A stretch of DNA of 37,215 bases. Origin: an uncultured Bacteroidia bacterium (GTDB lineage: Bacteria > Bacteroidota > Bacteroidia > Bacteroidales > UBA932). The position numbers and the translations under genes are program-made. Location of the stretch: contig CACZCQ010000018.1 of the NCBI GenBank assembly GCA_902779765.1, positions 1 to 37,215 of the forward strand. Reading direction: 5' to 3'. Shown here one piece after another: positions 19,598-33,714 of the stretch; position 1 is the stretch's first letter; every line of letters begins with the position of its first letter. A model generated the notes under the pieces. It made no database searches, was not told the origin of the DNA, and saw nothing but the letters and a program-made list of their open reading frames with translations.

Positions 19598-20065
19598 ATG
19601 GAACCGCAGATTAACGCTCACAACAAGGAAGAATATCCTCCCATGCACACGGCGGAGCATATCCTGAATGCTACGATGGTCAGGATGTTCGGCTGTCCGA
19701 GGTCGAGGAACGCACATATCGAGAGGAAAAAGTCCAAATGCGATTACGAGTTGCCGGCATGCCCGACAGATGGCCAGGTGGCAGGAATCGAGGCTAAGGT
19801 CAACGAGGTTATCAGCCTTGGACTTGACGTGACGATCGAGTACATGCCACGGGATGAAGCCGCGAAGATAGTCGACCTTAGCAAGCTGCCCGAAGACGCT
19901 TCCGAAACTCTCCGAATCGTCCGTGTCGGTGACTATGACGCCTGCGCCTGCGCCGGAGCGCATGTGCGCAATACATCGGAGATTGGTACGTTCAGGATTC
20001 TCAGTCACGACTACGAGAATGGACGCTGGAGGGTCAGATGGAAAGTGACAGGAACGGAGGCATAG
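19598..20065 (+). CDS. AlaX-type alanyl-tRNA editing protein
   Basis: The 155-residue stand-alone editing domain has both zinc/active-site motifs of the AlaRS/ThrRS second additional domain: HTAEH at 17-21 and CAGAH at 118-122. The MHTAEHIL context is typical of AlaX proteins. These cytoplasmic enzymes deacylate Ser- (and Gly-) tRNA(Ala), protecting translation. There is no AlaRS synthetase core, and the length fits the short AlaX class. The start ATG at 19598 lies 14 bp from the divergent -7 box of the LRR gene; no forward consensus promoter was recognised. The FKBP gene follows after 5 bp. Confidence 0.88.
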   Translation: MEPQINAHNKEEYPPMHTAEHILNATMVRMFGCPRSRNAHIERKKSKCDYELPACPTDGQVAGIEAKVNEVISLGLDVTIEYMPRDEAAKIVDLSKLPEDASETLRIVRVGDYDACACAGAHVRNTSEIGTFRILSHDYENGRWRVRWKVTGTEA

Positions 20066-20070
20066 AAGGA

Positions 20071-20490
20071 ATGGGAAGGAAAGGGAATAAGACGAATGCC
20101 TATAGGGAGGCAAACGAGGCCTTCCTTGCCGGGAAGGCCCGGGAAGAGGGCGTGGTAGTCCTCGAAAGCGGTGTGATGTACCGGAAAGTTAAGGAAGGAT
20201 ACGGCACCAGACGGCCTTCACTCTCGGGAGTCGTCTACGTCCATTACACCGGGCGGCTGATAGACGGAACGGTCTTTGACACGACTGAGGGACAGCCGTT
20301 GCCGGCCCTGTTCATAATAAGGGATCTTATCGTTGGATTTCAGGCGGCCCTGGTCAGGATGCACGAGGGAGACAGGTTCGAGGTCTATATCCCTGCCAAG
20401 TGGGGCTATGGTTCCATGAAACTGGACGGCATCCCCGCCCACAGCACTCTAATATTCGATATCGAGCTCGTCAAGATCGAGCGGGTCTAA
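20071..20490 (+). CDS. FKBP-type peptidyl-prolyl isomerase
   Basis: A 139-residue cytoplasmic protein. The ATG at 20071 is preferred because GGAGG at 20056-20060 gives a Shine-Dalgarno-like site ten bases upstream; an in-frame ATG at 20038 would overlap the AlaX gene. After an ~25-residue charged, helical N-terminus the FKBP fold appears: VYVHYTGRLIDGTVFD, VGFQAALVRMHEGDRFEVYIP, KWGYG and STLIFDIELV. The usual active-site Trp after VI-x-G is Phe here (VGF). It catalyses cis-trans isomerisation of X-Pro bonds and may act as a chaperone. There is no signal peptide, unlike many Bacteroidales FKBPs. It is co-transcribed with AlaX. Confidence 0.9.
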   Translation: MGRKGNKTNAYREANEAFLAGKAREEGVVVLESGVMYRKVKEGYGTRRPSLSGVVYVHYTGRLIDGTVFDTTEGQPLPALFIIRDLIVGFQAALVRMHEGDRFEVYIPAKWGYGSMKLDGIPAHSTLIFDIELVKIERV

Positions 20491-20854: not shown

Positions 20855-22957
20855 CTATTTCTCCGTGGTGGGGAAGATCGTCAGGCGCAGGGTGGTGCTG
20901 CCGTAAGGCACGAGGTCTATGTACTCGACCTTGCCTTCTGTCTTGAATTTCTCCGGCAGGGCAGGGGTGAATCTATTCTCCTTGAGCGTCCAGCCCTTTA
21001 CTCCGATGACGGGGACACGGATCTTGAGCGGAACCGTCTCGAGGTCGAAGGGGAATCCTTCGGCTCCGGTCGTTTCAACCTTCAGGTCCTTGAGCCCGTC
21101 CTTGACGAGGGCATAGTTCCACTTCCCTGCGGGAGTCATCGACCAGCTCTTGAAATCAGGATTGGCGGATACCTTGCCGGCAAGATTGTCGTAGATGGCG
21201 GGATCCTCCTCGACATCGGCGGGAATTGCATAAGAATATACGACCGGTCCGCGCTGGACGGATGACCCGATGACCGGATTGTCCACGATCTCGATTTCCA
21301 TAGGGAGGTCCACGGTGAAGGAGTCTCCGGTCTTCCACTGCTTGCTAACGGTCTTGAATCCGGCTTCCTGGCCCTTCACCCATCCCGGGATGCGGTAGGT
21401 GAAATCCATGTCGCAGGCCTTGGCGTATGGCTTGCCGTTCTTGAAGAAGCTGAATTCGAAGCGTACCTGCTCCTCGAAAGGATAGGCGGTCTTCTCCTCG
21501 ATACGGACCGTTATTCCCTTTCCGAGGTCATATTCCACTGAGGAGGGGCCATACAGGGCGGCGACGGGCTGGCCCTTGCGGTCTTTCATCCACATGCGGG
21601 CCACATAGTTCGGGAAGTAACGGTGCAGGTTACCGATACAGCATTCAGTCTCGTGGATCGGACGGTACTGCATCCAGGTAAGACCGTATTTGAACCTGTT
21701 ATGGTTGGAATTGCCGGTTGCGATGAACTGGTTGGGGCAGGAGAAATACTGCATCGTCTTGAAGTCCTTGGTGATGGCACCGAAACCGCCGTTGAATATT
21801 CCTTTCTCTATCCTGTCGGCCCACTGTCCGTCTCCTGTGACCATCAGGTAGTAGCCCATCGTCCAGGTGTAATCGGAGATGTCGCAGGTCTCGTGGCTTG
21901 CCAGAGGATCGTTGCCCGCGAGGGCTTCCGAGGAAGAATTGATTCCGTCGATGAGCATGTTCGGAGCTTCCATCTTCTCCTCAGCGTGAAGGGCGGCCTG
22001 GAGATACTTTTCCTCGCCGGTATAGGCGTAGAGAAGGAGGGGAACCTTCAGGAGCTCGTTCATCGTTACTCCGTGCATATGGAATTCACTGTCGTCAAGG
22101 GCGGTTTCCTGGGTCATGTTGGATTCGCCTCTCTCCCAGGCGTTGACCGCCAGGTCGAGGAGGGCCTGGTTGCCTGTGAGGGCATAGGTCCAGAGCATAC
22201 CTTCGACGTTGATGACGTAGCGGTCCTGTGCCAGTTCATCAAGTGAATATGACAGGTAGTTCTTCTCAAGGGCTTCGGGGATGCGGGGATCGCCGGTCGC
22301 TTCATAGTAGGCCTGGACAGCACGGAAGAACACTGCGAAAGGCCAGGCCATGGAGCCGGTGTCGGGGCCGAGACGGCCTTCGGAACGGTCTGCCATGAGG
22401 ATCCTTGCCTGACGGGCCATGCGCTCCTGCATCCTGGCCTGCATCTGGGCGAAACGCTGCTGGGCCTCAGGGTCTGCGGATACCTGTGCGTCGAAGTTCC
22501 TCGGACGGCGGCCGCGCTGAAGCTGTGCCATCGCTTCTTCCTCTGTCATTCCTGCTTTAGCGGGAAGGGGATGGGCGAGGACATATTCGATGTTCTCCTG
22601 CCAGGTGTCCAGGAAGTTCTTGTCATCCAGCAGGAAACCGAGACGGGTGATGCCGTCAAGGTAGTAGGCGGTCTGTTCGAAACGCCACCAGTCGGCTCCG
22701 CGGGATTCGGAATCACGCTTTAGCTCTCCGGCCCAGAGGACAGTGTTGAACGGGTAGGCCATGGCCTCGGGGTGACCTGCCAGGCCGTCACGCTGGCGTT
22801 CGAGTATCTCCTTCAGCCAGCCTTCAGGCTGGATCCTGTCGATCATTCCTTCTGCAAAGACGGCGTGAGGGGCGACGGGGACACTTGTGTCCGCTTTCTT
22901 GCCACATCCGGCGAGCAGGAGAAGCAGGCCGGCCAGGATTAAAAGACTCTTTTTCAT
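20855..22957 (-). CDS. GH127-family (DUF1680) lipoprotein, putative beta-L-arabinofuranosidase
   Basis: The 700-residue lipoprotein has lipobox LLAGC with Cys18. The helical (alpha/alpha) barrel carries the zinc site known from GH127: Glu356 and Cys358 in SHETCD, and Cys439-Cys440 in HETECC, one of which is the proposed nucleophile. A beta-sandwich region from ~460 onward contains FTYRIPGW and RGPVVYSYAIP, both typical. The family releases beta-L-arabinofuranose from plant glycoproteins or arabinans; related GH146/GH142-like branches have other specificities, so the exact substrate is open. Residues ~135-196 form a Met/Gln/Arg-rich, probably helical insertion (QMQARMQERMARQ) that I do not associate with the family. 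It is divergent from the ThuA-like gene and carries its own terminator. Confidence 0.85.
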   Translation of the reverse strand: MKKSLLILAGLLLLLAGCGKKADTSVPVAPHAVFAEGMIDRIQPEGWLKEILERQRDGLAGHPEAMAYPFNTVLWAGELKRDSESRGADWWRFEQTAYYLDGITRLGFLLDDKNFLDTWQENIEYVLAHPLPAKAGMTEEEAMAQLQRGRRPRNFDAQVSADPEAQQRFAQMQARMQERMARQARILMADRSEGRLGPDTGSMAWPFAVFFRAVQAYYEATGDPRIPEALEKNYLSYSLDELAQDRYVINVEGMLWTYALTGNQALLDLAVNAWERGESNMTQETALDDSEFHMHGVTMNELLKVPLLLYAYTGEEKYLQAALHAEEKMEAPNMLIDGINSSSEALAGNDPLASHETCDISDYTWTMGYYLMVTGDGQWADRIEKGIFNGGFGAITKDFKTMQYFSCPNQFIATGNSNHNRFKYGLTWMQYRPIHETECCIGNLHRYFPNYVARMWMKDRKGQPVAALYGPSSVEYDLGKGITVRIEEKTAYPFEEQVRFEFSFFKNGKPYAKACDMDFTYRIPGWVKGQEAGFKTVSKQWKTGDSFTVDLPMEIEIVDNPVIGSSVQRGPVVYSYAIPADVEEDPAIYDNLAGKVSANPDFKSWSMTPAGKWNYALVKDGLKDLKVETTGAEGFPFDLETVPLKIRVPVIGVKGWTLKENRFTPALPEKFKTEGKVEYIDLVPYGSTTLRLTIFPTTEK

Positions 22958-22959
22958 CG

Positions 22960-22988
22960 TTGGGGGTAATCTTTTTACAATAAGTTTG
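22960..22988 (+). promoter_or_regulatory. Candidate promoter of the ThuA-like gene
   Basis: TTG (22960-22962), 18 bp, TAAGTTTG (22981-22988), then the ATG 42 bp later. The opposite strand has TATATTTA (23006-22999), a one-mismatch -7 box usable by the divergent GH127 gene. Confidence 0.6.
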
Positions 22989-23030
22989 TTATTTGGAGTA
23001 AATATAAGAATTATTGTTTATTTTTATGTT

Positions 23031-23942
23031 ATGAAACACCTTTGCAAATCATTCATCACAGGCATCATACTGGCTGCCGTTCTCATTACTTCATGTTCCC
23101 GCAAACCCTTGCCGGGTGTCATCATCACCGGACAGAACAACCATAACTGGCCGGTCAGCAGCGAGGCCATAAAGCTGATGCTGGACAACTCCGGATTGTT
23201 CCGGATGGATGTGGCGGTATCCCCTTCGGCGGGGGAGGACATGTCGTCCTTCTCGGTCGATTTCAGCAAGTACAGGTTCGTTGTCCTGGATTACAACGGA
23301 GACAGGTGGCCGGAGAGCATGGACAATGCCTTCCTTGAATATGTCAAGGGCGGCGGTGGCGTGATCATCTACCATGCCGCCGACAATGCCTTCCCCGAAT
23401 GGGAAGAGTTCAACAGGATCATAGCGCTAGGAGGCTGGGGCGGCCGCAACGAGGATTCCGGTCCTTATGTGTATTGGAAGAACGGCGGGCTGGTCAAGGA
23501 CATGACTCCAGGCCCCGGAGGCTCCCACGGAGCCCGTCACGAATATGTGATGAACTGCCGCGACCGGGTTCATCCCGTTCTGAAGGGACTGCCTGAAAAG
23601 TGGAAGCACGCGGAGGATGAGTTGTATGACCGAATGAGGGGCCCCGGGGATATCAAGGATCTTCTCTATACGGCCTGGGCTCCTGCAGAGAAGGGCGGCT
23701 CGGGACGTGAAGAACCCCTGGTTTTTACTGTCGGATATGGCAAGGGACGTATCATCCACATCATGCTCGGACATGCGGGTGGATCGCTTGAGGATAATCC
23801 TGCCATGCAGTGTACCGGATTCCAGGTGCTGATGCTGAGGTCGGCGGAGTGGTGCGCTACCGGCAGGGTGACCCAGGAGGTCCCCGCTGATTTCCCTACC
23901 GAGGCGGAAGTCTCGCTGCGCCTGGACTATAAACCCAGATAA
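23031..23942 (+). CDS. ThuA-like domain lipoprotein
   Basis: A 303-residue lipoprotein. The ATG at 23031 begins a lipoprotein signal (MKHLCKSF...) with lipobox ITSC and Cys22; upstream in-frame codons lie before the promoter. The core is the ThuA (trehalose-utilisation, class I glutamine amidotransferase-like) fold: VIITGQNNHNW near 30-40, VVLDYNGDRWPE, GGGGVIIYHAADNAFPEWEEF, and a C-terminal GKGRIIHIMLGHAG near 252-265. The GATase Cys is not obvious in its usual nucleophile position, as is common in ThuA-like proteins. Members occur in glycoside and keto-sugar degradation clusters; their chemistry is only partly established. Its divergent position from GH127 suggests a shared role in carbohydrate use. 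Confidence 0.82.
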   Translation: MKHLCKSFITGIILAAVLITSCSRKPLPGVIITGQNNHNWPVSSEAIKLMLDNSGLFRMDVAVSPSAGEDMSSFSVDFSKYRFVVLDYNGDRWPESMDNAFLEYVKGGGGVIIYHAADNAFPEWEEFNRIIALGGWGGRNEDSGPYVYWKNGGLVKDMTPGPGGSHGARHEYVMNCRDRVHPVLKGLPEKWKHAEDELYDRMRGPGDIKDLLYTAWAPAEKGGSGREEPLVFTVGYGKGRIIHIMLGHAGGSLEDNPAMQCTGFQVLMLRSAEWCATGRVTQEVPADFPTEAEVSLRLDYKPR

Positions 23943-24015
23943 ATGCAGAGGGGATGAGACGCATTCTTTGCATTTCGTTGTTTATTATTATAGCTCCGCT
24001 GCTTTAAACTGGATT

Positions 24016-24657
24016 ATGAAAGCTGAGGTTTCGGCGATATCACGATTGAGGATCGGCATTGACGGCGAAGGTGTCACCACACTGGTTGCTTTCATGCTCT
24101 GCCCGTTGGAATGCAGGTTCTGCCTGAATCCACAGACGCTGTCGCTCGATTATCCTTATGAAGAGTATACTCCGGAGAGCCTTTACGAGGAGTTGAAGAA
24201 GGATGAACTCTACTTCCTGGCCACCGGTGGCGGGATTACTTTCGGAGGGGGCGAGCCGCTGCTCAGGCACGGGTTCATCAGGGAGTTCAGGAAAATCTGC
24301 GGTCCTGGATGGAAGATCAACCTGGAAACTTCGCTGAATGTTCCAAAAGGGTTCCTTGAAGATGTCATTCCGGTCACGGATTCCTTCATCATCGATATAA
24401 AGGGCATGGACCCGAAGATATATTCGAGCTATACCGGAAGGGACAACGGGGCCGTACTTGACAACTTGAGAATGCTTTCGTCCAACGGACTGGCATCCAA
24501 GTGCGTCATCAGGATCCCGGAGATTCCCGGATTCAATGACCGGGATGCGCTGCTGGAAAGTGAAAGACTGGTCCGCAGCCTTGGTTTTGAGACTATTGAC
24601 AGATTAAAATACGATACTGAATATGCAGAGAGGAAAAGAAATATGCAGGATGCTTAA
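24016..24657 (+). CDS. Small radical SAM protein (activating-enzyme type), function unknown
   Basis: A 213-residue cytoplasmic protein. The ATG at 24016 directly precedes the conserved block (MKAEVSAISRLRIG); 16 extra in-frame upstream residues look non-conserved. Cys29-x3-Cys33-x2-Cys36 (CPLECRFC) binds the SAM-cleaving [4Fe-4S] cluster; GGGEP at 77-81 is the SAM amino-group motif; FIIDIKGMD near 135-143 and VIRIPEIPGFND near 166-177 resemble PflA/NrdG-type activases. There is no SPASM or other extra Cys cluster, and no glycyl radical enzyme is encoded in the window. Its last 35 bp overlap the Cys-rich small protein gene, a strong sign of coupled translation. The reaction is unknown: modifying or activating the small protein is the obvious hypothesis. 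Confidence 0.88.
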   Translation: MKAEVSAISRLRIGIDGEGVTTLVAFMLCPLECRFCLNPQTLSLDYPYEEYTPESLYEELKKDELYFLATGGGITFGGGEPLLRHGFIREFRKICGPGWKINLETSLNVPKGFLEDVIPVTDSFIIDIKGMDPKIYSSYTGRDNGAVLDNLRMLSSNGLASKCVIRIPEIPGFNDRDALLESERLVRSLGFETIDRLKYDTEYAERKRNMQDA

Positions 24658-24958
24658 GGAGATCCGTCGCAGGATCGCGAGGGAAAACGACATCGAATTC
24701 ATCACATCCGAATGCCGTCACAAGGGCTCCTGTGCCGGTACCTGCCCCAAATGCGAGGCTGAGCTGGCCTATCTGGAGGAACAGTTGGCTTCCAGAAAAA
24801 GACTTGGCAAGGCCGTGAGAGTCGTAGGTCTCTCGATGGGCCTTGCCACGATAGCTCCAGTATTATTTACATCCTGCAAACCGGATGAGCAGGATAGCAT
24901 AAAGGGACAATTGGAGGGTGATATAGCACCCGCCCAGGTTATCCAAAAGTCTGAATGA
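24623..24958 (+). CDS. Cys-rich small protein with hydrophobic segment, partner of radical SAM protein
   Basis: A 111-residue protein. The N-terminus (MQRGKEICRMLKEIRRRIA) is a basic amphipathic helix; then a Cys module Cys31-x5-Cys37-x3-Cys41-x2-Cys44 (context GTCPKCEAE) that could bind Zn or an Fe-S cluster; then a charged helix (LEEQLASRKR); then a hydrophobic stretch (~67-83) ending in LFTSC, which looks like a lipobox with Cys85; then a 26-residue acidic tail. From memory, similar Cys modules occur at the N-termini of other Bacteroidales proteins, beside comparable radical SAM genes; I cannot verify this here. The ATG at 24623 keeps the conserved-looking N-terminus; an alternative ATG is at 24650. 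The function is unknown. Confidence 0.75.
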   Translation: MQRGKEICRMLKEIRRRIARENDIEFITSECRHKGSCAGTCPKCEAELAYLEEQLASRKRLGKAVRVVGLSMGLATIAPVLFTSCKPDEQDSIKGQLEGDIAPAQVIQKSE

Positions 24959-24963
24959 TATTA

Positions 24964-25773
24964 TCAGGAAGGTCTCTTGTATCCTTCCCTGGTTGCCCGT
25001 TCGGACATCCTTTGGATACGTGTCTCAGTAGCCGGATGGTCGGAGAATATCTCCGAGACGGCTGAACTTGAGGCTGCCTGGGTACCTGCGGAAGCACCTC
25101 CTGTCGAGAGATTGAGCAGACGCTCGAATGCCGTAGCCATAGCCCAAGGATTCCTGCCGTGATCGACCAGGAACTGATAGCCATAGTCATCAGCCTGGTT
25201 CTCCTGCTTCCTTGAGAACTTGGCGCTGAGGAGGGCTTCTCCGATATCACCGAGCTGGGAAGCCGTAAGTACGGCTATCGTACCGCCGGTGGCGACGACT
25301 GCATCCCTGATGGCGGAATTGCGCAGTGCGGCCTGGAACTGTTTCTTGGAATGCTTGAGCGCGACGTGGCCTATTTCGTGTCCGACAACGCCGAGGACCT
25401 GGTCGTCTGTCATCTTGTCCAAAAGTCCGGCATAGATCCTCACGCTTCCGTCCGCACAGGCGAAAGCATTGACATCCTTGGTGTTGTATACCTGGAAGTT
25501 GAGAGGAATCCCGTCAACGGAAGTGATGCCTTTCGTTAGTTTGCGTACACGCTGGACATAAGGATTGCTCTCCGGAAGCACCTGGTTCTTGGCATCCAGC
25601 TGGGTGACATACTGGCCGACATATGCCTGGATCTGTTCGTCAGACAGGGATGCTGCCTGGGCTATCTTCATTCCACTTGAGAGAAGATAGGCGGCATTGA
25701 ACTGTTGTCCGCAGGAAACGAGCATCATTGCCGCGGCAATCATGGTGACTAGCTTTCTCATTTTCTTGTTCAT
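24964..25773 (-). CDS. M48-family metallopeptidase lipoprotein
   Basis: The 269-residue lipoprotein has lipobox LVSC with Cys21. The zinc motif HEIGH lies at 132-136 and the third ligand is probably Glu191 in SRKQENQADDYG; a hydrophobic helix (VVATGGTIAVLTA) sits between them as in M48C/LoiP-BepA-like peptidases. The C-terminal IFSDHPATETRIQRM motif is also characteristic. These enzymes act in envelope protein quality control, on the periplasmic side of the membrane. Translation may start at 25773 or at Met5 (25761); the first gives a better basic N-region. It is monocistronic under a full-consensus promoter. Its stop lies 5 bp from the convergent Cys-rich protein gene. Confidence 0.92.
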   Translation of the reverse strand: MNKKMRKLVTMIAAAMMLVSCGQQFNAAYLLSSGMKIAQAASLSDEQIQAYVGQYVTQLDAKNQVLPESNPYVQRVRKLTKGITSVDGIPLNFQVYNTKDVNAFACADGSVRIYAGLLDKMTDDQVLGVVGHEIGHVALKHSKKQFQAALRNSAIRDAVVATGGTIAVLTASQLGDIGEALLSAKFSRKQENQADDYGYQFLVDHGRNPWAMATAFERLLNLSTGGASAGTQAASSSAVSEIFSDHPATETRIQRMSERATREGYKRPS

Positions 25774-25947: not shown

Positions 25948-28176
25948 TTATGCCGAATCGACTGTAAAACTGACAGAAACGGAGTTTCCGTATTCATCAA
26001 CTGCAGTGAGCGTGTGTTTCCCGGGTTCCGGGGCCAGCAGGAGCTGGTGGATGAACCGAGTCTGTCCTACATATCCGCTGTCAAGATGCCAGAATACAGT
26101 GCTTTCCGGGTTGCGGTGAGCCAGATTGAATGTCACTCCCTTGACCGAACCGTCCAGCTGCCGGGGGATATAGATGACTTCACCTCCTTCCGGGTATATG
26201 AATTCCATCGGATCCGTGTCACCGTGAGAGGCGGATGTGCGTGGATTGTATTCCGGGTGGTGCTGGCGGTAATACCATTCCATTGCCGGGGGAAGGATGA
26301 AGGCCGCGGCCCCGTCGACGACCTTGTGGTATGGGCACGGAGCAGTCTTTACTGACTTTCTCGGGAGGAGAAGGGTGTCGAGATGGTCGCAGTGCAGACC
26401 GGCGAGATGGCCGGACTCACGGCAGACCTCCGCCACGGTGCCGTCCTGCCAGGCCGGTTCCTTGAACCATCCGTCCCTGGAATATGCCGTGTCTTCCTCC
26501 CTTGCCGGAAGGAGGTTGAATATGTCGAACATCACCGGCCCGGCCGTACGCGCTCCCACGAGTCCCGGAACGCCCTGCCCCTGGGCGTTTCCGGCCCAGA
26601 CTCCTACTGCATAGTCGGCTGTTACCCCTACCGCCCAGGCATCCCTGAAGCCGTAGCTCGTACCTGTCTTCCAGGCGACCTTCTTCAGGGACCTGACAAG
26701 GTGCCAGTCCATTTCGTCAGGGCGGTTGACTTCCTTGAGCGCATCGAAAGTGTACCACAGCGCGCATCTGTCAGTGAGTGGGAATCTTTCAGGCCTTCCT
26801 CCGGGAATACCGAGGTACGAGGACGCCATCCAGGAGAATATGGAGGTTATTTCAAGCAGGGAGCCTTCTCCTCCTCCGAGGATCAGGGAAAGCCCGTAAT
26901 ACGAAGCACTTCTGGGAAGGGTGCTCATCCCGCATTTTCTCAGTATGTCCAGGAATTTCGGCACTCCGAATCTTCTGAGCATATGTACCGATGGAACGTT
27001 CAGGGACCTCGAAAGGGCTTCCGAAGCCGGAACGGCTCCTGCGAACTGGCGGTTGAAATTCTGTGGGGAGAATCCGTTCAGGTTGACCGGGACGTCCGGC
27101 AGCAGGGTGTTTGGAAGTATCTCTCCTTCCTGGAGCATCGAACAGTACAGGATTGGTTTGAGTATGCTGCCGGTGCTCCTTGGAGCGCGCAGGATGTCAA
27201 CCTCGGATCCGGGACGCGACCTGTCAGGAGAAGAGTTTCCGACATATGCCAGGATCTCCCCGGTCCTTACGTCCATCACTACCGCAGCCAGGTCTTCGAT
27301 TCCCCTGGCCGAGAAATCTTCGTTCCATCTGTCGGCGACTGCCTGCACCTGTTTCTGGAAGTGGATGTCGATGTCGGTCCTGACCCTTTTGCCGGGGGAC
27401 GTTTTCCAAATATATTCAGTCAGGTGCCTGGCTTCCTGTGGAAGCTGTACCGGTTCGAGAGGAAGGGGCTCCCCGCAAGCCAGTTCCAGGTCGAGGGAGT
27501 CGATATGCCCCCTTTCGAACAATGTCCCCAGCAGGGCGTTCCGCTTCGCAAGGAGCTTGGAGCGGTTCTTGCCCGGGTGGATGTCCGCAGGTGAATTCGG
27601 GAGCACGGCAAGGGTCGCGGCTTCGCCCCACGACAACTCTTCAGGCGGCCTTCCGAAGTATCTCCATGAGGCTGCCTCCAGGCCTACGACATTCCCCCCG
27701 AACGGTGCGTGGGAGGCGTACAGTCCCAGAATCTCCTCTTTCGAGCAGCGGAGTTCCAGCCTGGTTGCGAGAACGGCCTCGATCAGTTTCTGTTTCAGGG
27801 TCCTTTCCTTTCCGCGGGACATGCGGATGACCTGCATCGTGATCGTACTTCCTCCGCTGGTGACCTTACCTGCCTTCAGGTTGCCGGCAGCGGCCCTGAT
27901 GATGGCGACCGGATTGACTCCGGGGTGGAAAGCGAACCACCTGTCCTCGAACTCTATCAACGCAGTCCGGAATTTGTCCGGGATCCTGTCCGAGGGCGGG
28001 AATCTCCATTGCCCGTCCCCGGCTATCCTGGCGCCTAGCAGTTCTCCGTTGCGGTCTTCGACGACGGTGGAATACCTGGTCCCCTTGAACAAGTCCCGGG
28101 GAAGGCACAGAAGGTAAGCAAGCAGCAGGGCGGCAGTGACGCCGCCCGCTATTATTGCCCGAACCTTCCTGTCCAT
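25948..28176 (-). CDS. pbpC: Penicillin-binding protein 1C
   Basis: A 742-residue bifunctional class A PBP. One N-terminal membrane anchor (~8-25) leads into the GT51 glycosyltransferase: catalytic Glu77 in EFEDRW and the GGSTITMQ motif at 108-115. The transpeptidase domain has Ser337-x-x-Lys340 (SILK), a SLN triad element, and KTGTS in WKTGTSYGFRDAW. A C-terminal beta domain (~650-742) matches the penicillin-binding C-terminal extension of PBP1C. It polymerises, and perhaps cross-links, peptidoglycan in the periplasm; PBP1C is thought to act in wall repair. It follows the thioester-containing macroglobulin by 3 bp, the conserved yfhM-pbpC arrangement. Confidence 0.96.
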   Translation of the reverse strand: MDRKVRAIIAGGVTAALLLAYLLCLPRDLFKGTRYSTVVEDRNGELLGARIAGDGQWRFPPSDRIPDKFRTALIEFEDRWFAFHPGVNPVAIIRAAAGNLKAGKVTSGGSTITMQVIRMSRGKERTLKQKLIEAVLATRLELRCSKEEILGLYASHAPFGGNVVGLEAASWRYFGRPPEELSWGEAATLAVLPNSPADIHPGKNRSKLLAKRNALLGTLFERGHIDSLDLELACGEPLPLEPVQLPQEARHLTEYIWKTSPGKRVRTDIDIHFQKQVQAVADRWNEDFSARGIEDLAAVVMDVRTGEILAYVGNSSPDRSRPGSEVDILRAPRSTGSILKPILYCSMLQEGEILPNTLLPDVPVNLNGFSPQNFNRQFAGAVPASEALSRSLNVPSVHMLRRFGVPKFLDILRKCGMSTLPRSASYYGLSLILGGGEGSLLEITSIFSWMASSYLGIPGGRPERFPLTDRCALWYTFDALKEVNRPDEMDWHLVRSLKKVAWKTGTSYGFRDAWAVGVTADYAVGVWAGNAQGQGVPGLVGARTAGPVMFDIFNLLPAREEDTAYSRDGWFKEPAWQDGTVAEVCRESGHLAGLHCDHLDTLLLPRKSVKTAPCPYHKVVDGAAAFILPPAMEWYYRQHHPEYNPRTSASHGDTDPMEFIYPEGGEVIYIPRQLDGSVKGVTFNLAHRNPESTVFWHLDSGYVGQTRFIHQLLLAPEPGKHTLTAVDEYGNSVSVSFTVDSA

Positions 28177-28179
28177 GGA

Positions 28180-31100
28180 TCAGTTGATGACCTTTGCAGT
28201 ACCGGAGGCCGTGGATGCATTGATACGGCTGTCATACATGGCTTCGCAGACAACTGCGGGCAGGATGAATTCTCCCTCATATGCGGCGCGCATCTTTATC
28301 CTGAACGTTTTGCTCGTGCCCTTCCTGAGGTCGAAGTGCCAGGTCACCCTGTCATCCCTGATGTCCATGTGGTCGACGATGCTGTCGGAACCACCCTGTC
28401 CGGTCATTCGCTCGTTGAATATCTCCCATCCCGAAGGTACTGCCTCCGTCAGGGCCAGGTGCGTGTAATCCCTGATTCCGCTTGTGTTACCGACGGTGAT
28501 AGTGACGGTGAAGTCAGTTCCCTGAGGTATCTCGGCGGGATTCAGTGCCTTGCCTTCCTCAGAAACATAGCTGACGTTGAGGCTGATGCCGCTGGCCCTG
28601 GCTTCAGTCCTGGAACCCGACTGGGGTACGATGGATGTAACCAGGGTGGCATAGATGGTTCCTTCGGAGTCATTGCGGATATCGGCTCCGCCGGAGGCGG
28701 GATCGAGGTTGACATTGCTGACAGACCTGGCGCTGCTGACCTGCATCACATTGGATCCCTGGGTCACCTCTGCCTTCAGCATGCCTGTATTGACTTTCCC
28801 TGCAAGGTCACCCATCGCCTTGGTGCAGAAAGCCGCTTCCTGCGTGGTGTACCAGCCCGAGGCCATGGATTTTGCAATTTCCTGGGCCAGGTCCATAGCC
28901 TCCGGAATATTGTCAACCAGCACTGAGGCTTCCATGGCTATGGCCTTGTCGCGGAGGGGCGATCCGTAAGTGCGGCCGCATTCGCCATATTCGGAGAAGT
29001 CTTTCTTCAGGTTTGTGATTATCTCCTTGGCTACGTTCTTCTTTCCTGCTGCCACATAGGCTGAGGCCAGCATCCAGGCCGCCTGGCTTGACAGATTGTC
29101 ACTCTCCTTGAGCCTGTTCATGGCTCCGCTCTCAGGTTCGCCCTTCAATGCGAGGGTGTATAACCTGTATGCCTGCTCGAGGTCTTTAAGGTCTCCGCCG
29201 TCGTTGTTGCGATAATCCTGGACACTCCTTTTCTGGAACCTGGACCAGCTGGCCTGGACACCCTTGCTGACACTGAAGCCGCTTTGGGAGGCCATCGCCA
29301 TGAACTGGCCGGCCATGGAACTGACCCAGTTGTCGGCATCGGAAGAGCCCGGCCAGTAAGCGAAGCCTCCATTTCCGAGTTGCCTCAGGTAAATCTGCTG
29401 GAGCAGTCCGGGTATGAGCTTGTCTGCTTCCTGGCGTTTGGCCTCGGGGAGCATGTCCCTGATTGCAAGGAGACTGATACCCCTGGACGCAATCTGCTCG
29501 CTGCAGTTGTAGTCATAGTCCTTCAGGAAGGAGAACATGCCTTCGAAATCTACCGAGGGGAAACTGGCGAGTTCGATGGTAGCCCACTGGTTTTCATCGG
29601 CCTTGAACGGAGTGAAACCGAAATGCTTCTTCTCACCCTTCCCGATCGCGACCCTGGTTACCTCTATAGCAGGAGGAGCAGGGTTCCGCACGGCGATCTC
29701 TATGGTCTGGGATGCCTTGTGCCCGTTCCCTTCAGCGGAAACCGTAACCTTGGCAGTGCCCGGTCCTTCTGCTTGCAGGTTGAATTTCACAAGCTGGTCA
29801 CCAGGACTGGAGAACCTTACTGGCATGGTGGATTCCCCGACGACCTTCAGAGGTCCTTCGACGCTGACCTTGACATCGGCGGACTTGACAGCGTCTTCAA
29901 GTGCGAATACATTGACGGGCAGGACCACTTTCTCACCGGTTCCCAGGACCCTCGGAAGGGTTGGAAGAACCATCAGGGGCGATCTGACCGGCACTGTCTT
30001 TTCGGCATTGCCGTAAACCGATTCGTCACCTGCCACCACCATGACCCTGACGCTTCCGATATACATTGGAAGCTTGACCTTGTGTGTGGCCGATCCGCTT
30101 ACGAGCGTGAACGGCCCCATGAACTTGACCACCGGGTTGAACCGGTTGTCTTTCTTGGCACCCACGACCACATCTTCGTCGCCGCCGATACTGAACATGG
30201 GTGAGAAGCGGCCGCTGTAGGCTCCGATCACATAGTCATACAGATCCCAGGTCTTGACTCCGAGCGCCTCCCTTTCGTACATCGCCTTCCAGGGATCGGG
30301 GGTCTTGAACCCTGTGAGGTCGAGCAGGCCTTCGTCCACTATGGCGAGGGTATATGTCATCGGCTTGTTGTTCTTCTCCTTTACCTTGATCCTGAATTCC
30401 TCTTCAGGGCGCAGCACATCCGGCATGCTGATCTCGGGAACGAGATGGGAATCCTTGTCATTCACCATTATCGGACGGACTCCGTACAGCCTTATGGGAA
30501 GGTCGTTGTCCGCCCTTTCATGTGGCTGTATCAGGGAAATATGGATATAGAAATTCGGAGCCATCTCAGGAGTCACCTTGAAGGTGTAGACCACGTCTTC
30601 CTCGCCGGATGACTTCACCCATTCCCTCGATATCACTTCCCTCGAATTCTCAAGGGAGACCAGGGCCTGGCCGCGTGAGGCTGAAGGGATATACACCTTG
30701 ACCTTTTCACCGACCTCGTAGCTTTCCTTGTCCGTGGAGAATGAAAGCATCGTCAGGGCATCGGGATCGGCCTTGGAGGACCTGCCCCTGTAAGCAGGCC
30801 AGTCCACATAGAGGATGTCACCGGAAAGATGGCCGCTGTCATTGTCACTGACCAGGACAAGATAGCGTCCCCAGTCGGGATAGTTGACCCTGAACGGGAT
30901 CTGGCAGGTGCCGGACGAAGACTTCAGTTCGCCGGTCGCTACCGGTTCCGCGGAAGGGCTGTTGACGTATGAATCCAGACTCTCGCTGCGGCTTTCCCAC
31001 CACCAGCTCCATTTGATCTTGTAGATCGAATATGACAGGTTGTCTCCGGCGACCTTTTTCCCGTCCTTGTCCACGACAGCGACTTCTATCTTGTAGTCCT

Positions 31101-33714
31101 TGTCAGTCTCGATGAAATGACTGTCTCCTTCCTGGGGAACCTTGACTCCCACGTATGCCTTGTATGGTGAATACGGTACCGTAACGGTGTTGAAACTGAA
31201 ATCTCCACCAGGTTCTTCCACCGTGGTCACTATGTCGGCGGTGAGCATTCCGGGTGCATTATCTGCAGGAGGCATGTCTGCGTTGACCGTAGCATGGCCG
31301 TCCTTGTCCAGGCGGGTGTCCACCAGTACGTGCTCGCTCTTGGAGAATTCTGACAATGGAGCCTGGAATGTATAGCCCTCGAATCCCTTGAAGGAAGCCG
31401 AACCGCTCCGAAGTGTCATGTTGACCTTCGCTCCGAGTCCTGAGGCGGGAGGTCCGGTAAGCCAGTTCGAAGTGATGCTGACGGGCTTGCTGCTCCCTCC
31501 GTCTATGGGTCCTTCACCCAAGTCAAGGTTGATCTTGAGCCTGTTGGGCTTGATGGATTCGATCTTCAGGGACTTGTGGAAAGTGGCGCCTCCGATCTTG
31601 AAGTATGCCATCCAGGTTCCGGTAGGATCGTCCTGCCTTGTGGGAATATCGAACAGATAGAAACCGTTCTTGGCGCTTCCGTTGATGATCTTGGTGTAGA
31701 ACTTCGATTCGGGAGTGTACAGCTCCATGACCGCAGGATGCCTGTCAGGGATAGTCCTGTCCTTGTCCTCGAGAATCAGGGTGACATGAAGTGTGTCTCC
31801 GGGTCTCCATACTCCTCTCTCTCCATAGATGAAAGCCTTCAGCCCTTTCTCGATGGTCATCCCACCTACGTCAAACCGGCTCAGGGTCTTCTCCTCACCC
31901 TGCGTGACCTTGAGATAGCTGGTGGCTCCTCCCCGTTTCGCAACGACCGCGAAGGGCCTGCCGGACAGGTCGACCTCTGCCATTCCGTCAGTTCCTGTCT
32001 TGGCGTAACCAATCTCGGCCAGCTGGTAACTGTAGACGTAAAGCTCGGCATTGAAGACCGGTTCGGCGGAGAGGATGTCGCTTACGCTCACCCACAGTTT
32101 GTCTCCACCGGAGTACTTGGCGATGACACCGAGGTTGGATGTCAGCAGGTTGACTGAAGGGAACCTGCTCTCTTCCATGTAATAGGAAGGCTTCGTGGGG
32201 TTGTCCCTGTCTTCCCATTCGTATTCGGACCAGTCGTGATAGGATTCGTAATAATACGGGTACGGATTATCCCAGACCTTGTCCTCTTCCTCCGTCAGTT
32301 CGACGGAAGAAATGTCCACCAGGTCGAGGGTAGGAGCGCCGCTCTTGAACGAGGCCGGTTTGCCGTAGACCGAATATTCCTGCCTGAAGGACAGCCTGAC
32401 GCGGTAGATTGCACCAGCTTCCTGCTTGAACAGACCGGAAAGGTCGACGCTGTAATCCTGCCACTTGTGAAGGTTCTTGGAAGGATCCGAGTCCAGCCTC
32501 AGGCATCTCTTGTAGACCAACCTTCCGCTCCTTCTAAGAGAGTTCTCCCCGTCAAGCCTGTTGTCCTGGAGGAAGGTTAGGACATTGTCCTCGTAGATCT
32601 GTATGACACTGATGTCAACTGCGTTGAGGTTGACGGCCTTGAAGGGCAGTATCAGTTCCTTGGAATTGGGAAGGATGGTTCCGGTGATCGGTATCTCCAC
32701 GGCGGGTTTCTCCTCTGCGGGCTCGAATGTCTTGGCGAAGTCATTGCCGAGCCTGGTGCCGTCATAGCTTCTGACCGCTCCCGATACTACCAGGTCGAGC
32801 GGACCATCCTCGGGAGACTCATAGAATATTTTCACCCTGGAGTTTTCCGCCTGGACGAAATACTGGCCAGCCCCCTTGAGGGTGAAAAGGCCCGAATCGT
32901 CATCTATGTCGGCTACAGGGTTCGAGAAGTAGATGTTGATGTACGGATCCTCCGCGTCTATCCTTTCGGCTCCAACGATCCTGAAACCTACGGTGGAGGG
33001 TATCGTGACCTCCAGTTTGGAATCGGTGACGAATCCGGTGTCGCCGGATTTCATCTTGATTTTCAGGATGTTGTCCTGGTCCGACCGGTTGAGCCCGACT
33101 ATGTCGAAATGGTAATGTAGCGGATCCTCCCCGGCGGTCACGGTCAGTTCGGCGGAATTGTCGGGGTATGAATATTCGACCATCTCCCGGACCTTCTCGA
33201 CAGGAAGCTCTTCGGTGAGGGCTATCGAACCTCCGACATTCGCCTTGGACGGATTGGCCGCAGTGATGGTGATGTCATCCAGCGAGAGCACGGCTTCCTT
33301 GATGGCGACCAGGAAACTGAATGTGAATCTCTTGAATTTCCTGGAACTGATTTTCTGGAGTTTGTCCAGACGGAGCCTGGCGGTGTACGACTGCCCGGGC
33401 TTCAGGGCCCCGCTCTCAGGGATGAACTCGATGGTATTGTCAGTCAGCCATCTCGAGGTTCCTTTCAGGGGTGGACTGAAAGTGAGTATCCCATCCTTGA
33501 TGTCCGCTCCGGCGGTGGCTCCCGGAATCGAAGATGCAAGTTCCACACGGATCGTGGACTTGTCGGAAATGATTCCGCCGGTGTGTGCCTTGATGAAGGT
33601 GGCGAATTCAGTGCTCTGTCCCTTGCTCTTGCCGTACCTGCTGCAGGAGAAACTGATTATGGCCAGCATGAATATGGTCACGACGGCCAGGATTCTATTG
33701 AATACAGGTTTCAT
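28180..33714 (-). CDS. Alpha-2-macroglobulin lipoprotein with thioester
   Basis: The 1844-residue lipoprotein has lipobox SFSC with Cys24. A string of macroglobulin beta domains follows, with GERGVWRPGDTLHVTLILED in the MG2-type region, then a bait-like variable region, the A2M block, and the helical thioester domain. The thioester motif CSEQ lies at residues 1404-1407 (bases 29494-29505) in the context DYNCSEQIASR, followed by GGFAYWPGSSDADNWVS as in active bacterial A2Ms. It is predicted to trap attacking proteases covalently after bait cleavage, guarding the periplasm. It is the first gene of an operon with pbpC (3-bp gap), matching the known functional pairing in Gram-negative bacteria. 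Its own promoter lies 20 bp upstream. Confidence 0.95.
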   Translation of the reverse strand: MKPVFNRILAVVTIFMLAIISFSCSRYGKSKGQSTEFATFIKAHTGGIISDKSTIRVELASSIPGATAGADIKDGILTFSPPLKGTSRWLTDNTIEFIPESGALKPGQSYTARLRLDKLQKISSRKFKRFTFSFLVAIKEAVLSLDDITITAANPSKANVGGSIALTEELPVEKVREMVEYSYPDNSAELTVTAGEDPLHYHFDIVGLNRSDQDNILKIKMKSGDTGFVTDSKLEVTIPSTVGFRIVGAERIDAEDPYINIYFSNPVADIDDDSGLFTLKGAGQYFVQAENSRVKIFYESPEDGPLDLVVSGAVRSYDGTRLGNDFAKTFEPAEEKPAVEIPITGTILPNSKELILPFKAVNLNAVDISVIQIYEDNVLTFLQDNRLDGENSLRRSGRLVYKRCLRLDSDPSKNLHKWQDYSVDLSGLFKQEAGAIYRVRLSFRQEYSVYGKPASFKSGAPTLDLVDISSVELTEEEDKVWDNPYPYYYESYHDWSEYEWEDRDNPTKPSYYMEESRFPSVNLLTSNLGVIAKYSGGDKLWVSVSDILSAEPVFNAELYVYSYQLAEIGYAKTGTDGMAEVDLSGRPFAVVAKRGGATSYLKVTQGEEKTLSRFDVGGMTIEKGLKAFIYGERGVWRPGDTLHVTLILEDKDRTIPDRHPAVMELYTPESKFYTKIINGSAKNGFYLFDIPTRQDDPTGTWMAYFKIGGATFHKSLKIESIKPNRLKINLDLGEGPIDGGSSKPVSITSNWLTGPPASGLGAKVNMTLRSGSASFKGFEGYTFQAPLSEFSKSEHVLVDTRLDKDGHATVNADMPPADNAPGMLTADIVTTVEEPGGDFSFNTVTVPYSPYKAYVGVKVPQEGDSHFIETDKDYKIEVAVVDKDGKKVAGDNLSYSIYKIKWSWWWESRSESLDSYVNSPSAEPVATGELKSSSGTCQIPFRVNYPDWGRYLVLVSDNDSGHLSGDILYVDWPAYRGRSSKADPDALTMLSFSTDKESYEVGEKVKVYIPSASRGQALVSLENSREVISREWVKSSGEEDVVYTFKVTPEMAPNFYIHISLIQPHERADNDLPIRLYGVRPIMVNDKDSHLVPEISMPDVLRPEEEFRIKVKEKNNKPMTYTLAIVDEGLLDLTGFKTPDPWKAMYEREALGVKTWDLYDYVIGAYSGRFSPMFSIGGDEDVVVGAKKDNRFNPVVKFMGPFTLVSGSATHKVKLPMYIGSVRVMVVAGDESVYGNAEKTVPVRSPLMVLPTLPRVLGTGEKVVLPVNVFALEDAVKSADVKVSVEGPLKVVGESTMPVRFSSPGDQLVKFNLQAEGPGTAKVTVSAEGNGHKASQTIEIAVRNPAPPAIEVTRVAIGKGEKKHFGFTPFKADENQWATIELASFPSVDFEGMFSFLKDYDYNCSEQIASRGISLLAIRDMLPEAKRQEADKLIPGLLQQIYLRQLGNGGFAYWPGSSDADNWVSSMAGQFMAMASQSGFSVSKGVQASWSRFQKRSVQDYRNNDGGDLKDLEQAYRLYTLALKGEPESGAMNRLKESDNLSSQAAWMLASAYVAAGKKNVAKEIITNLKKDFSEYGECGRTYGSPLRDKAIAMEASVLVDNIPEAMDLAQEIAKSMASGWYTTQEAAFCTKAMGDLAGKVNTGMLKAEVTQGSNVMQVSSARSVSNVNLDPASGGADIRNDSEGTIYATLVTSIVPQSGSRTEARASGISLNVSYVSEEGKALNPAEIPQGTDFTVTITVGNTSGIRDYTHLALTEAVPSGWEIFNERMTGQGGSDSIVDHMDIRDDRVTWHFDLRKGTSKTFRIKMRAAYEGEFILPAVVCEAMYDSRINASTASGTAKVIN

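Follow-up and report, generated by a model that had tools for sequence, protein, structure and literature searches.

We propose that a PflA-type radical SAM enzyme and the cysteine-rich protein whose gene overlaps its own belong to a large system of gut bacteria that is apparently undescribed. The pair was found in the window, that is, the whole stretch of 37,215 nucleotides that was analysed, and its relatives confirm that it is real, conserved and more than a chance neighbourhood; the two proteins almost certainly work as a functional pair. A short glycine motif, carried mostly by exported proteins, is probably where the enzyme introduces a modification, by a chemistry that we infer.

The radical SAM enzyme

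Both open reading frames and their overlap lie where the preliminary description had placed them (Table 1), and its picture of a minimal PflA/NrdG-like protein with CPLECRFC and GGGEP holds. The cluster motif reads C29-x3-C33-x2-C36 and GGGEP occupies residues 77–81; a Pfam scan of the 213 amino acid protein matched Radical_SAM (65 bits) and Fer4_12 (32.5 bits) but revealed no additional cluster domain, and a SPASM domain was matched in neither Pfam nor NCBIfam. The best NCBIfam scores are those of glycyl-radical activases, every one under its cut-off: 124.5 bits against 174.35 for TIGR02494, and 89.4 bits against 231.75 for TIGR02493, which is far short. The only PADLOC matches of the enzyme were weak and viperin-like (E 0.008), and PHROGs yielded nothing beyond weak radical SAM matches.

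Table 1. Features of the gene pair (positions in the window).
Feature	Position	Strand	Basis
PflA-type radical SAM protein, 213 aa	24016..24657	+	Radical_SAM match, AF2 model, fold match
CPLECRFC, CX3CX2C [4Fe-4S]/SAM motif	24100..24123	+	Translation; three Cys invariant in alignment A5
Asp16 codon, counterpart of the PflA glycine-peptide anchor Asp16	24061..24063	+	Invariant in 44/44; alignment to 3c8f
Asn38 codon, counterpart of the second PflA peptide anchor Asn38	24127..24129	+	Invariant in 44/44
Gene overlap enzyme/partner, 35 bp	24623..24657	+	
Cys-domain partner, 111 aa, proposed precursor/substrate	24623..24958	+	
Five-cysteine N-terminal domain (C8, C31, C37, C41, C44), proposed adaptor/leader	24632..24799	+	Spacing, AF2
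Signal-sequence-like segment ending in lipobox-like FTSC (C85)	24803..24877	+	Sequence, heuristic
27-residue tail predicted to remain after putative cleavage, predicted disordered	24875..24955	+	AF2 pLDDT
LEGDI, residues 97–101, proposed target Gly99	24911..24925	+	Copy of [LM]-x-G-[DE]-[VIP]

The AF2 model of the enzyme is confident (mean pLDDT 93.4), and its best solved fold match is 3cb8, PflA with AdoMet and a peptide substrate (TMq 0.87). Residues D16, N38, D127, K129 and R166 are invariant in all 44 aligned partner enzymes. In PflA, Asp16 and Asn38 hold the peptide around Gly734, as described in a passage of PMC9326890. The enzyme has, then, both the PflA fold and the glycine-peptide anchors; these two residues do not single out the tail motif described below, because E. 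coli PflA has both of them too.

A quick tree with 65 rows placed 52 of the 87 partner enzymes (a set made nonredundant at 80%, with sequences cut at 235 residues) in one group, for which SH-aLRT, the sole support measure used, was 96. This group stands apart from E. coli PflA, PflC, YbiY and YjjW, from two PflAs of the same order and from seven NrdGs, in a tree where long branches were flagged, above all that of the window genome's own NrdG. The wrongly picked frame NrdG_L156 was removed from the rows and NrdG_L016 was taken by coordinates.

The genome from which the window comes comprises 2.48 Mb and is 97.75% complete. Across all of it there were no matches to PF01228 (Gly_radical), a profile that found matches in three of 14 control genomes, so that the lack of the usual activase partner, already pointed out for the window, extends genome-wide. 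The genome carries one NrdD, on contig C13, and directly behind it, overlapping the NrdD gene, lies a 166 amino acid frame that scores 116 bits (E 1e-33) against TIGR02826 (NrdG3), under the cut-off of 151.7. Assignment of our enzyme to NrdG was rejected on its separate clade and on this other NrdG3-like neighbour of NrdD, and assignment to PflA on the profile scores below cut-off and the genome without a PF01228 protein.

The cysteine-rich partner

The module C-x5-C-x3-C-x2-C is present in the 111-residue protein as had been described (C31-x5-C37-x3-C41-x2-C44); what had been overlooked are C8, the signal-like stretch ending in FTSC and the tail motif LEGDI. The module recurs in 162 of 164 unique related proteins, a set from which L012 (a contig-edge fragment), duplicates and matches below 55 bits were left out. 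C8 is invariant in an alignment of 60 rows (A6) and nearly so in one of 79 rows (A4), and the G99 column is nearly invariant in A6.

The partner protein had no match in Pfam, NCBIfam, PHROGs or PADLOC. No profile of a known precursor family matched it or occurred in the profile lists of the 79 members, and it was rejected as a member of a known RiPP precursor family on that ground; it likewise lacks TonB_C in the Pfam scan and was rejected as a TonB energy transducer. When the Cys domain was compared by sequence with solved structures the best match reached only E 0.28, and a fold search with the small protein gave two matches, of E 6.8 and 9.8. Its AF2 model is modest (pLDDT 68.9, pTM 0.47), with two helices around the Cys loop and with pLDDT below 50 at residues 84–86 and 88–109 of the tail.

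By a simple-rule heuristic of our own, the segment following the Cys domain in the 164 relatives is lipobox-like in 94, AxA-like in 53, otherwise hydrophobic in eight and without such features in nine. That two kinds of cleavage site follow one and the same domain suggests a real signal sequence, whose processing would release the Cys domain. The C-terminal parts differ widely. Among 79 members (78 nonredundant tails plus the window protein) we found TonB_C in 29, CarbopepD_reg_2 in 20, CarboxypepD_reg in 11, HIRAN in two and serpin in one, families that may share members; short tails also occur among the variants.

Conservation, adjacency and co-occurrence

Scanning a genome collection with a Cys-domain profile yielded at least 559 relatives, of which 79 loci were kept. 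The record titles of 74 loci name Bacteroidales/Bacteroidia or groups that we take to belong there (Equibacterium, Sodaliphilus), many of them from gut or rumen. Five titles are outlying, namely Paenibacillus (L070), Clostridia (L074, L075, L078) and Lachnospiraceae (L087); these MAGs point to misbinned contigs or transfer. An enzyme was present within the retrieved DNA in 65 of the 79 loci. It lies at most 100 bp from a Cys gene, or overlaps one, in 55 of these 65, is upstream of it in 59, and overlaps the nearest Cys gene in 25. The other 14 loci had no enzyme within the retrieved DNA, which contig ends do not wholly explain since seven of them span more than 10 kb.

At order level, the same five among 198 genomes have the domain (>59 bits) and the enzyme (E≤1e-40), adjacent or in one frame in every case, and none has just one of the two; the Fisher value is 4e-10, which, like all such values here, is not a true probability because related genomes are treated as independent. 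At E≤0.001 the domain profile marked 41 of the 198 genomes, 36 with weak partial matches (about 20–26.5 bits, in frames of about 470–660 amino acids) that were not counted as Cys domains; the sole such frame that was opened, L099, presumably resembles an iron-only hydrogenase. Within one family of 136 genomes, 45 have both, three the domain only, two the enzyme only and 86 neither. The five exceptions comprise contig ends or a short contig (G352, G355, G275), a domain without its start (G331) and a shortened enzyme (G249). The pair is patchy in the window's own genus, with a P0002 match in three of 37 genomes, many of which are incomplete. From the profile scan, the co-occurrence and the adjacency counts, conservation past close relatives, which had been suspected, is established.

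A single Cys protein was present in 57 of the 79 loci and two to six in the other 22 (six in L092), all 22 with one enzyme or none within the retrieved DNA; genome G354 encodes nine Cys domains and one enzyme. The fixed ratio that the preliminary description had read from the gene overlap is contradicted by these counts.

No universal neighbour, and hence no third conserved component, emerged; the recurring neighbours are lineage-specific, with other sets in Bacteroides. Among near loci, the window's own included, ThuA recurred in 14 and M48 in 15. In the window (20855–25773) GH127-like and ThuA-like genes lie upstream of the pair and an M48 peptidase gene downstream on the other strand. Elsewhere in the window, a gene for an AlaX-like alanyl-tRNA editing protein (19598–20490; tRNA_SAD over cut-off) overlaps one for an FKBP-type isomerase (NCBIfam BamJ over cut-off) by 28 bp, and at 25948–33714 penicillin-binding protein 1C (TIGR02073 over cut-off) adjoins an 1844 amino acid protein that had no NCBIfam match and presumably resembles alpha-2-macroglobulin. 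Rfam and ARAGORN, run over the window, found a tRNA-Val only.

The tail motif

Once two tails shorter than 20 amino acids had been left out, the remaining 162 were reduced to 78 nonredundant sequences. In these the strict motif [LM]-x-G-[DE]-[VIP] occurs 55 times, in 42 of the 78 tails, against 3.9±2.0 in 500 shuffles (maximum 11), and at 19 times the rate seen in other frames of the loci (stop-to-stop, at least 250 amino acids, both strands). A looser form, with [LMIVFY], has 81 copies in 54 tails against 11.7 in shuffled ones, seven times the other-frame rate. The motif is absent in part, 36 tails having no strict and 24 no looser copy. A swapped control motif gave one copy where 5.8 were expected, and a reversed one nine against 3.7 (maximum 10), which is likewise somewhat high. 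An unseeded Gibbs sampler, run on 76 of the 78 tails, recovered L-x-G-D-V at 9.3–10.6 bits, compared with 7.3–7.5 bits for shuffled tails, in four runs each.

The five-residue motif was not found in the N-terminal domains of 121 proteins, a set in which the strict Cys pattern dropped L053 and one L081 frame and from which duplicates and matches below 60 bits were left out. Hydrophobic-x-G-[DE] without the last residue matches 75 times in these 121 Cys domains, where the Cys loop reads x-K-G-D-C, so that confinement to tails holds for the five-residue form alone. As a control, TonB_C proteins of ten genomes, of which seven have the system and three lack it, were collected with a profile built from Cys-domain TonB proteins, and 30 retrieved loci among the matches were used. 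The looser motif was present in all seven genes with a Cys domain (eight rows) and in two of 25 rows without one, rows that may not represent 25 separate genes.

The glycine of LEGDI invites comparison with the targets in E. coli glycyl radical enzymes, RVSGYA, RVCGYL and RVAGYS. Both kinds of site have hydrophobic-x-Gly; the residue that follows is acidic in the LEGDI-type motif and tyrosine in the E. coli enzymes. An export or sorting signal was considered for the motif and rejected, because three members without signal-like sequence (L102, L106, L081) retain it.

Fusions and rearranged loci

Physical association, held probable from the gene overlap, is supported by two gene fusions. In L096 the enzyme is fused to the Cys domain, and the next ORF, of 71 amino acids with its ATG 12 bases after the fusion's stop, carries the strict copy LIGDI and the loose copies IEGIL and LEGLI, so that motif peptide and Cys domain are encoded separately. 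In L102 a single protein of 642 amino acids runs from the enzyme through the Cys domain to HIRAN, with LQGDV, IEGEI and looser copies in the linker between the last two. The partner in L106 joins the Cys domain, LMGDI, serpin and HIRAN; PADLOC placed PDC-M03B matches in the HIRAN region of both L102 and L106. In L014 (768–2734) a divergent enzyme has the loose copies LMGVP and LMGDL in its own C-terminus and the Cys protein is bare; a DUF6794 protein is encoded next door. Motif and Cys domain can thus be parted and rejoined, which fits a substrate plus an adaptor.

Three loci, L103–L105, do not fit this arrangement, since their enzyme is accompanied by a bare Cys protein of 79–88 amino acids with no clear motif tail nearby. 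They resemble a mobile island in which the pair is put to a different use. Beside the Cys protein of L103 and L104 lies a DUF3800 protein (Pfam), and L103 also has a Sel1/LRR protein of about 1190 amino acids and, by eye, a relaxase-like frame. The enzyme of L018 (3949–4547) is in two overlapping frames in a MAG, a frameshift or an assembly error, and L088 (4321–4968) resembles it. The Cys protein of L113 (3422–4171) has its start, including C8, replaced, and no enzyme was found in that genome; it looks to have decayed after enzyme loss.

Proposed mechanism and alternatives

We propose that the enzyme, a relative of the activases with no PFL-type glycyl radical enzyme to serve, acts on proteins that bear, or are accompanied by, the five-cysteine domain. 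This domain would be the recognition or adaptor element that docks the substrate, and it probably binds metal or an Fe-S cluster. Acting in the cytoplasm on the flexible tail at L-x-G-[DE]-[VIP], the enzyme would most likely remove a hydrogen from the alpha-carbon of the glycine, the reaction that PflA carries out on RVSGYAV. Export would come after modification, since the signal-like sequence follows the Cys domain in most members, and signal peptidase I or II would then cut off the Cys domain. The mature product would be a 27-residue lipopeptide in the window and TonB-like or CarboxypepD_reg-like proteins elsewhere. The last chemical step might be cross-linking, oxidation or cleavage, among which we favour none.

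Where the preliminary description left the small protein as substrate, electron donor or scaffold, the choice can be sharpened to a Cys domain that may be adaptor or leader and a tail motif that may be the substrate. We lean towards this adaptor plus tail-substrate arrangement. For the whole proposal, a two-component protein-modification system, docked by the Cys domain and acting on the glycine of the tail motif, we hold the balance to be even, and the glycine as the very position attacked is plausible if somewhat doubtful. Further, though we hold it less likely than not, we suggest that an activase lineage now modifies the glycine alpha-carbon in L-x-G-[DE]-[VIP] of whole exported and some cytoplasmic proteins; on this tentative reading no glycyl radical enzyme would be served, the five-cysteine adaptor would be detachable, and the modification would be leader-guided, at protein level and new.

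Other explanations have to be weighed against this. The Cys domain could be a redox partner or auxiliary Fe-S module, the tails being cargo or membrane tethers and the true substrate lying elsewhere; near-invariant cysteines, the tail-less Cys proteins of L103–L105 and the enzyme-Cys fusion of L096 would suit such a role. We nevertheless think it unlikely, given that the motif accompanies the domain over many different C-terminal parts, that its copies in L096 lie on an ORF of their own immediately after the fusion, and that 22 loci have two to six Cys proteins but at most one enzyme, a ratio more in keeping with substrates than with an electron donor. Alternatively the Cys domain may itself be the substrate, for example for a thioether on its cysteines, with the tail motif a later sorting or protease site. 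Its cysteines are the most conserved feature, its Cys loop holds a G-[DE] step, and cysteine acts as sulfur donor in radical SAM thioether formation according to passages of PMC8939145. This reading is quite improbable, however, as the domain would be discarded after export in most members and as L102, L106 and L081 keep the motif without signal-like sequence, so that it is not a sorting site. Against it stands, too, an enzyme without the extra cluster domain that is usual in thioether-forming maturases.

A minimal glycyl-radical protein, whose tail would bear a persistent glycyl radical installed by the enzyme and in which the small protein would serve as a catalytic or spare-part subunit, would agree with an active site of PflA type in which Asp16 and Asn38 are invariant, and with the hydrophobic residue two before the glycine, as in RVSGYA. 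It is nonetheless very improbable, because the tail is short, predicted disordered and variable in relatives, with nothing to shield a radical, and most members are predicted to be exported. As for a conventional PflA or NrdG serving a glycyl radical enzyme that is encoded elsewhere, the similarity to PflA in sequence and fold is outweighed by a genome without PF01228, as far as the assembly is complete, by the NrdG3-like neighbour that NrdD has of its own, by the separate clade in the quick tree and by the TIGR02493 score of 89.4 against 231.75 bits; we practically dismiss it. Two findings would have counted against the preliminary description, a pair confined to close relatives and an enzyme clustering with PflA or NrdG orthologues that have their glycyl radical enzyme elsewhere in the genome; neither was obtained, since the pair is conserved, the enzyme forms its own clade and NrdD has its own NrdG3-like partner.

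If our proposal of a modified tail glycine is true, TonB-like, CarboxypepD_reg-like and lipopeptide products of many gut and rumen Bacteroidales undergo a radical modification that is predicted by none of the profiles in the scanned libraries. Glycyl-radical activases would be connected with peptide maturases, with the gene pair and the residue named, and a discrete adaptor domain would mark the substrates, which could therefore be listed from sequence.

Comparison with known systems

The pair was not found described among the open-access papers listed or in the profile libraries scanned. TIGR04133 and TIGR04134, which we take to be an rSAM/lipoprotein family pair, are absent from the profile match lists, and their names were not found in the open-access papers searched. 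With PflA (TIGR02493) and PFLE/PflC (TIGR02494) the enzyme shares the fold, CX3CX2C, the D16/N38 anchors and the minimal size; it differs from these activases in its own clade, in a genome without a PF01228 protein and in a constant Cys-domain partner. The TonB family (TonB_C, PF03544) is represented in 29 of the 79 Cys-domain members, whereas the motif is rare (2/25) among TonB_C rows that lack this domain, and the window protein is without TonB_C.

Radical SAM RiPP systems (epipeptide, proteusin and sactipeptide), as they appear in parts of PMC8326336, pair a radical SAM gene with one or several neighbouring genes for precursor-like products that have a conserved N-terminus and a variable C-terminus. 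Here too the maturase gene adjoins precursor-like genes (65/79 loci), and a conserved leader precedes a variable core with a recurring motif, the putative modification site. Unlike in those systems, the leader is a five-Cys domain with a signal-like segment, the enzyme has no SPASM match and the cores are often whole protein domains. The GG-leader RiPP clusters of Bacteroidales, as far as sections of PMC10352776 present them, likewise combine radical SAM enzymes and precursors in the same bacterial order, but they use GG leaders and PCAT transporters, unlike the window system; neither TonB nor glycyl occurs in the main text of that paper. Four features appear to be new here, none of them having been found described among the papers listed or in the profile libraries: an enzyme of this type acting in such a role, the five-Cys domain, a leader of signal type and cargo made of whole domains. 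The building plan itself, a radical SAM maturase with a leader-bearing precursor, is known already.
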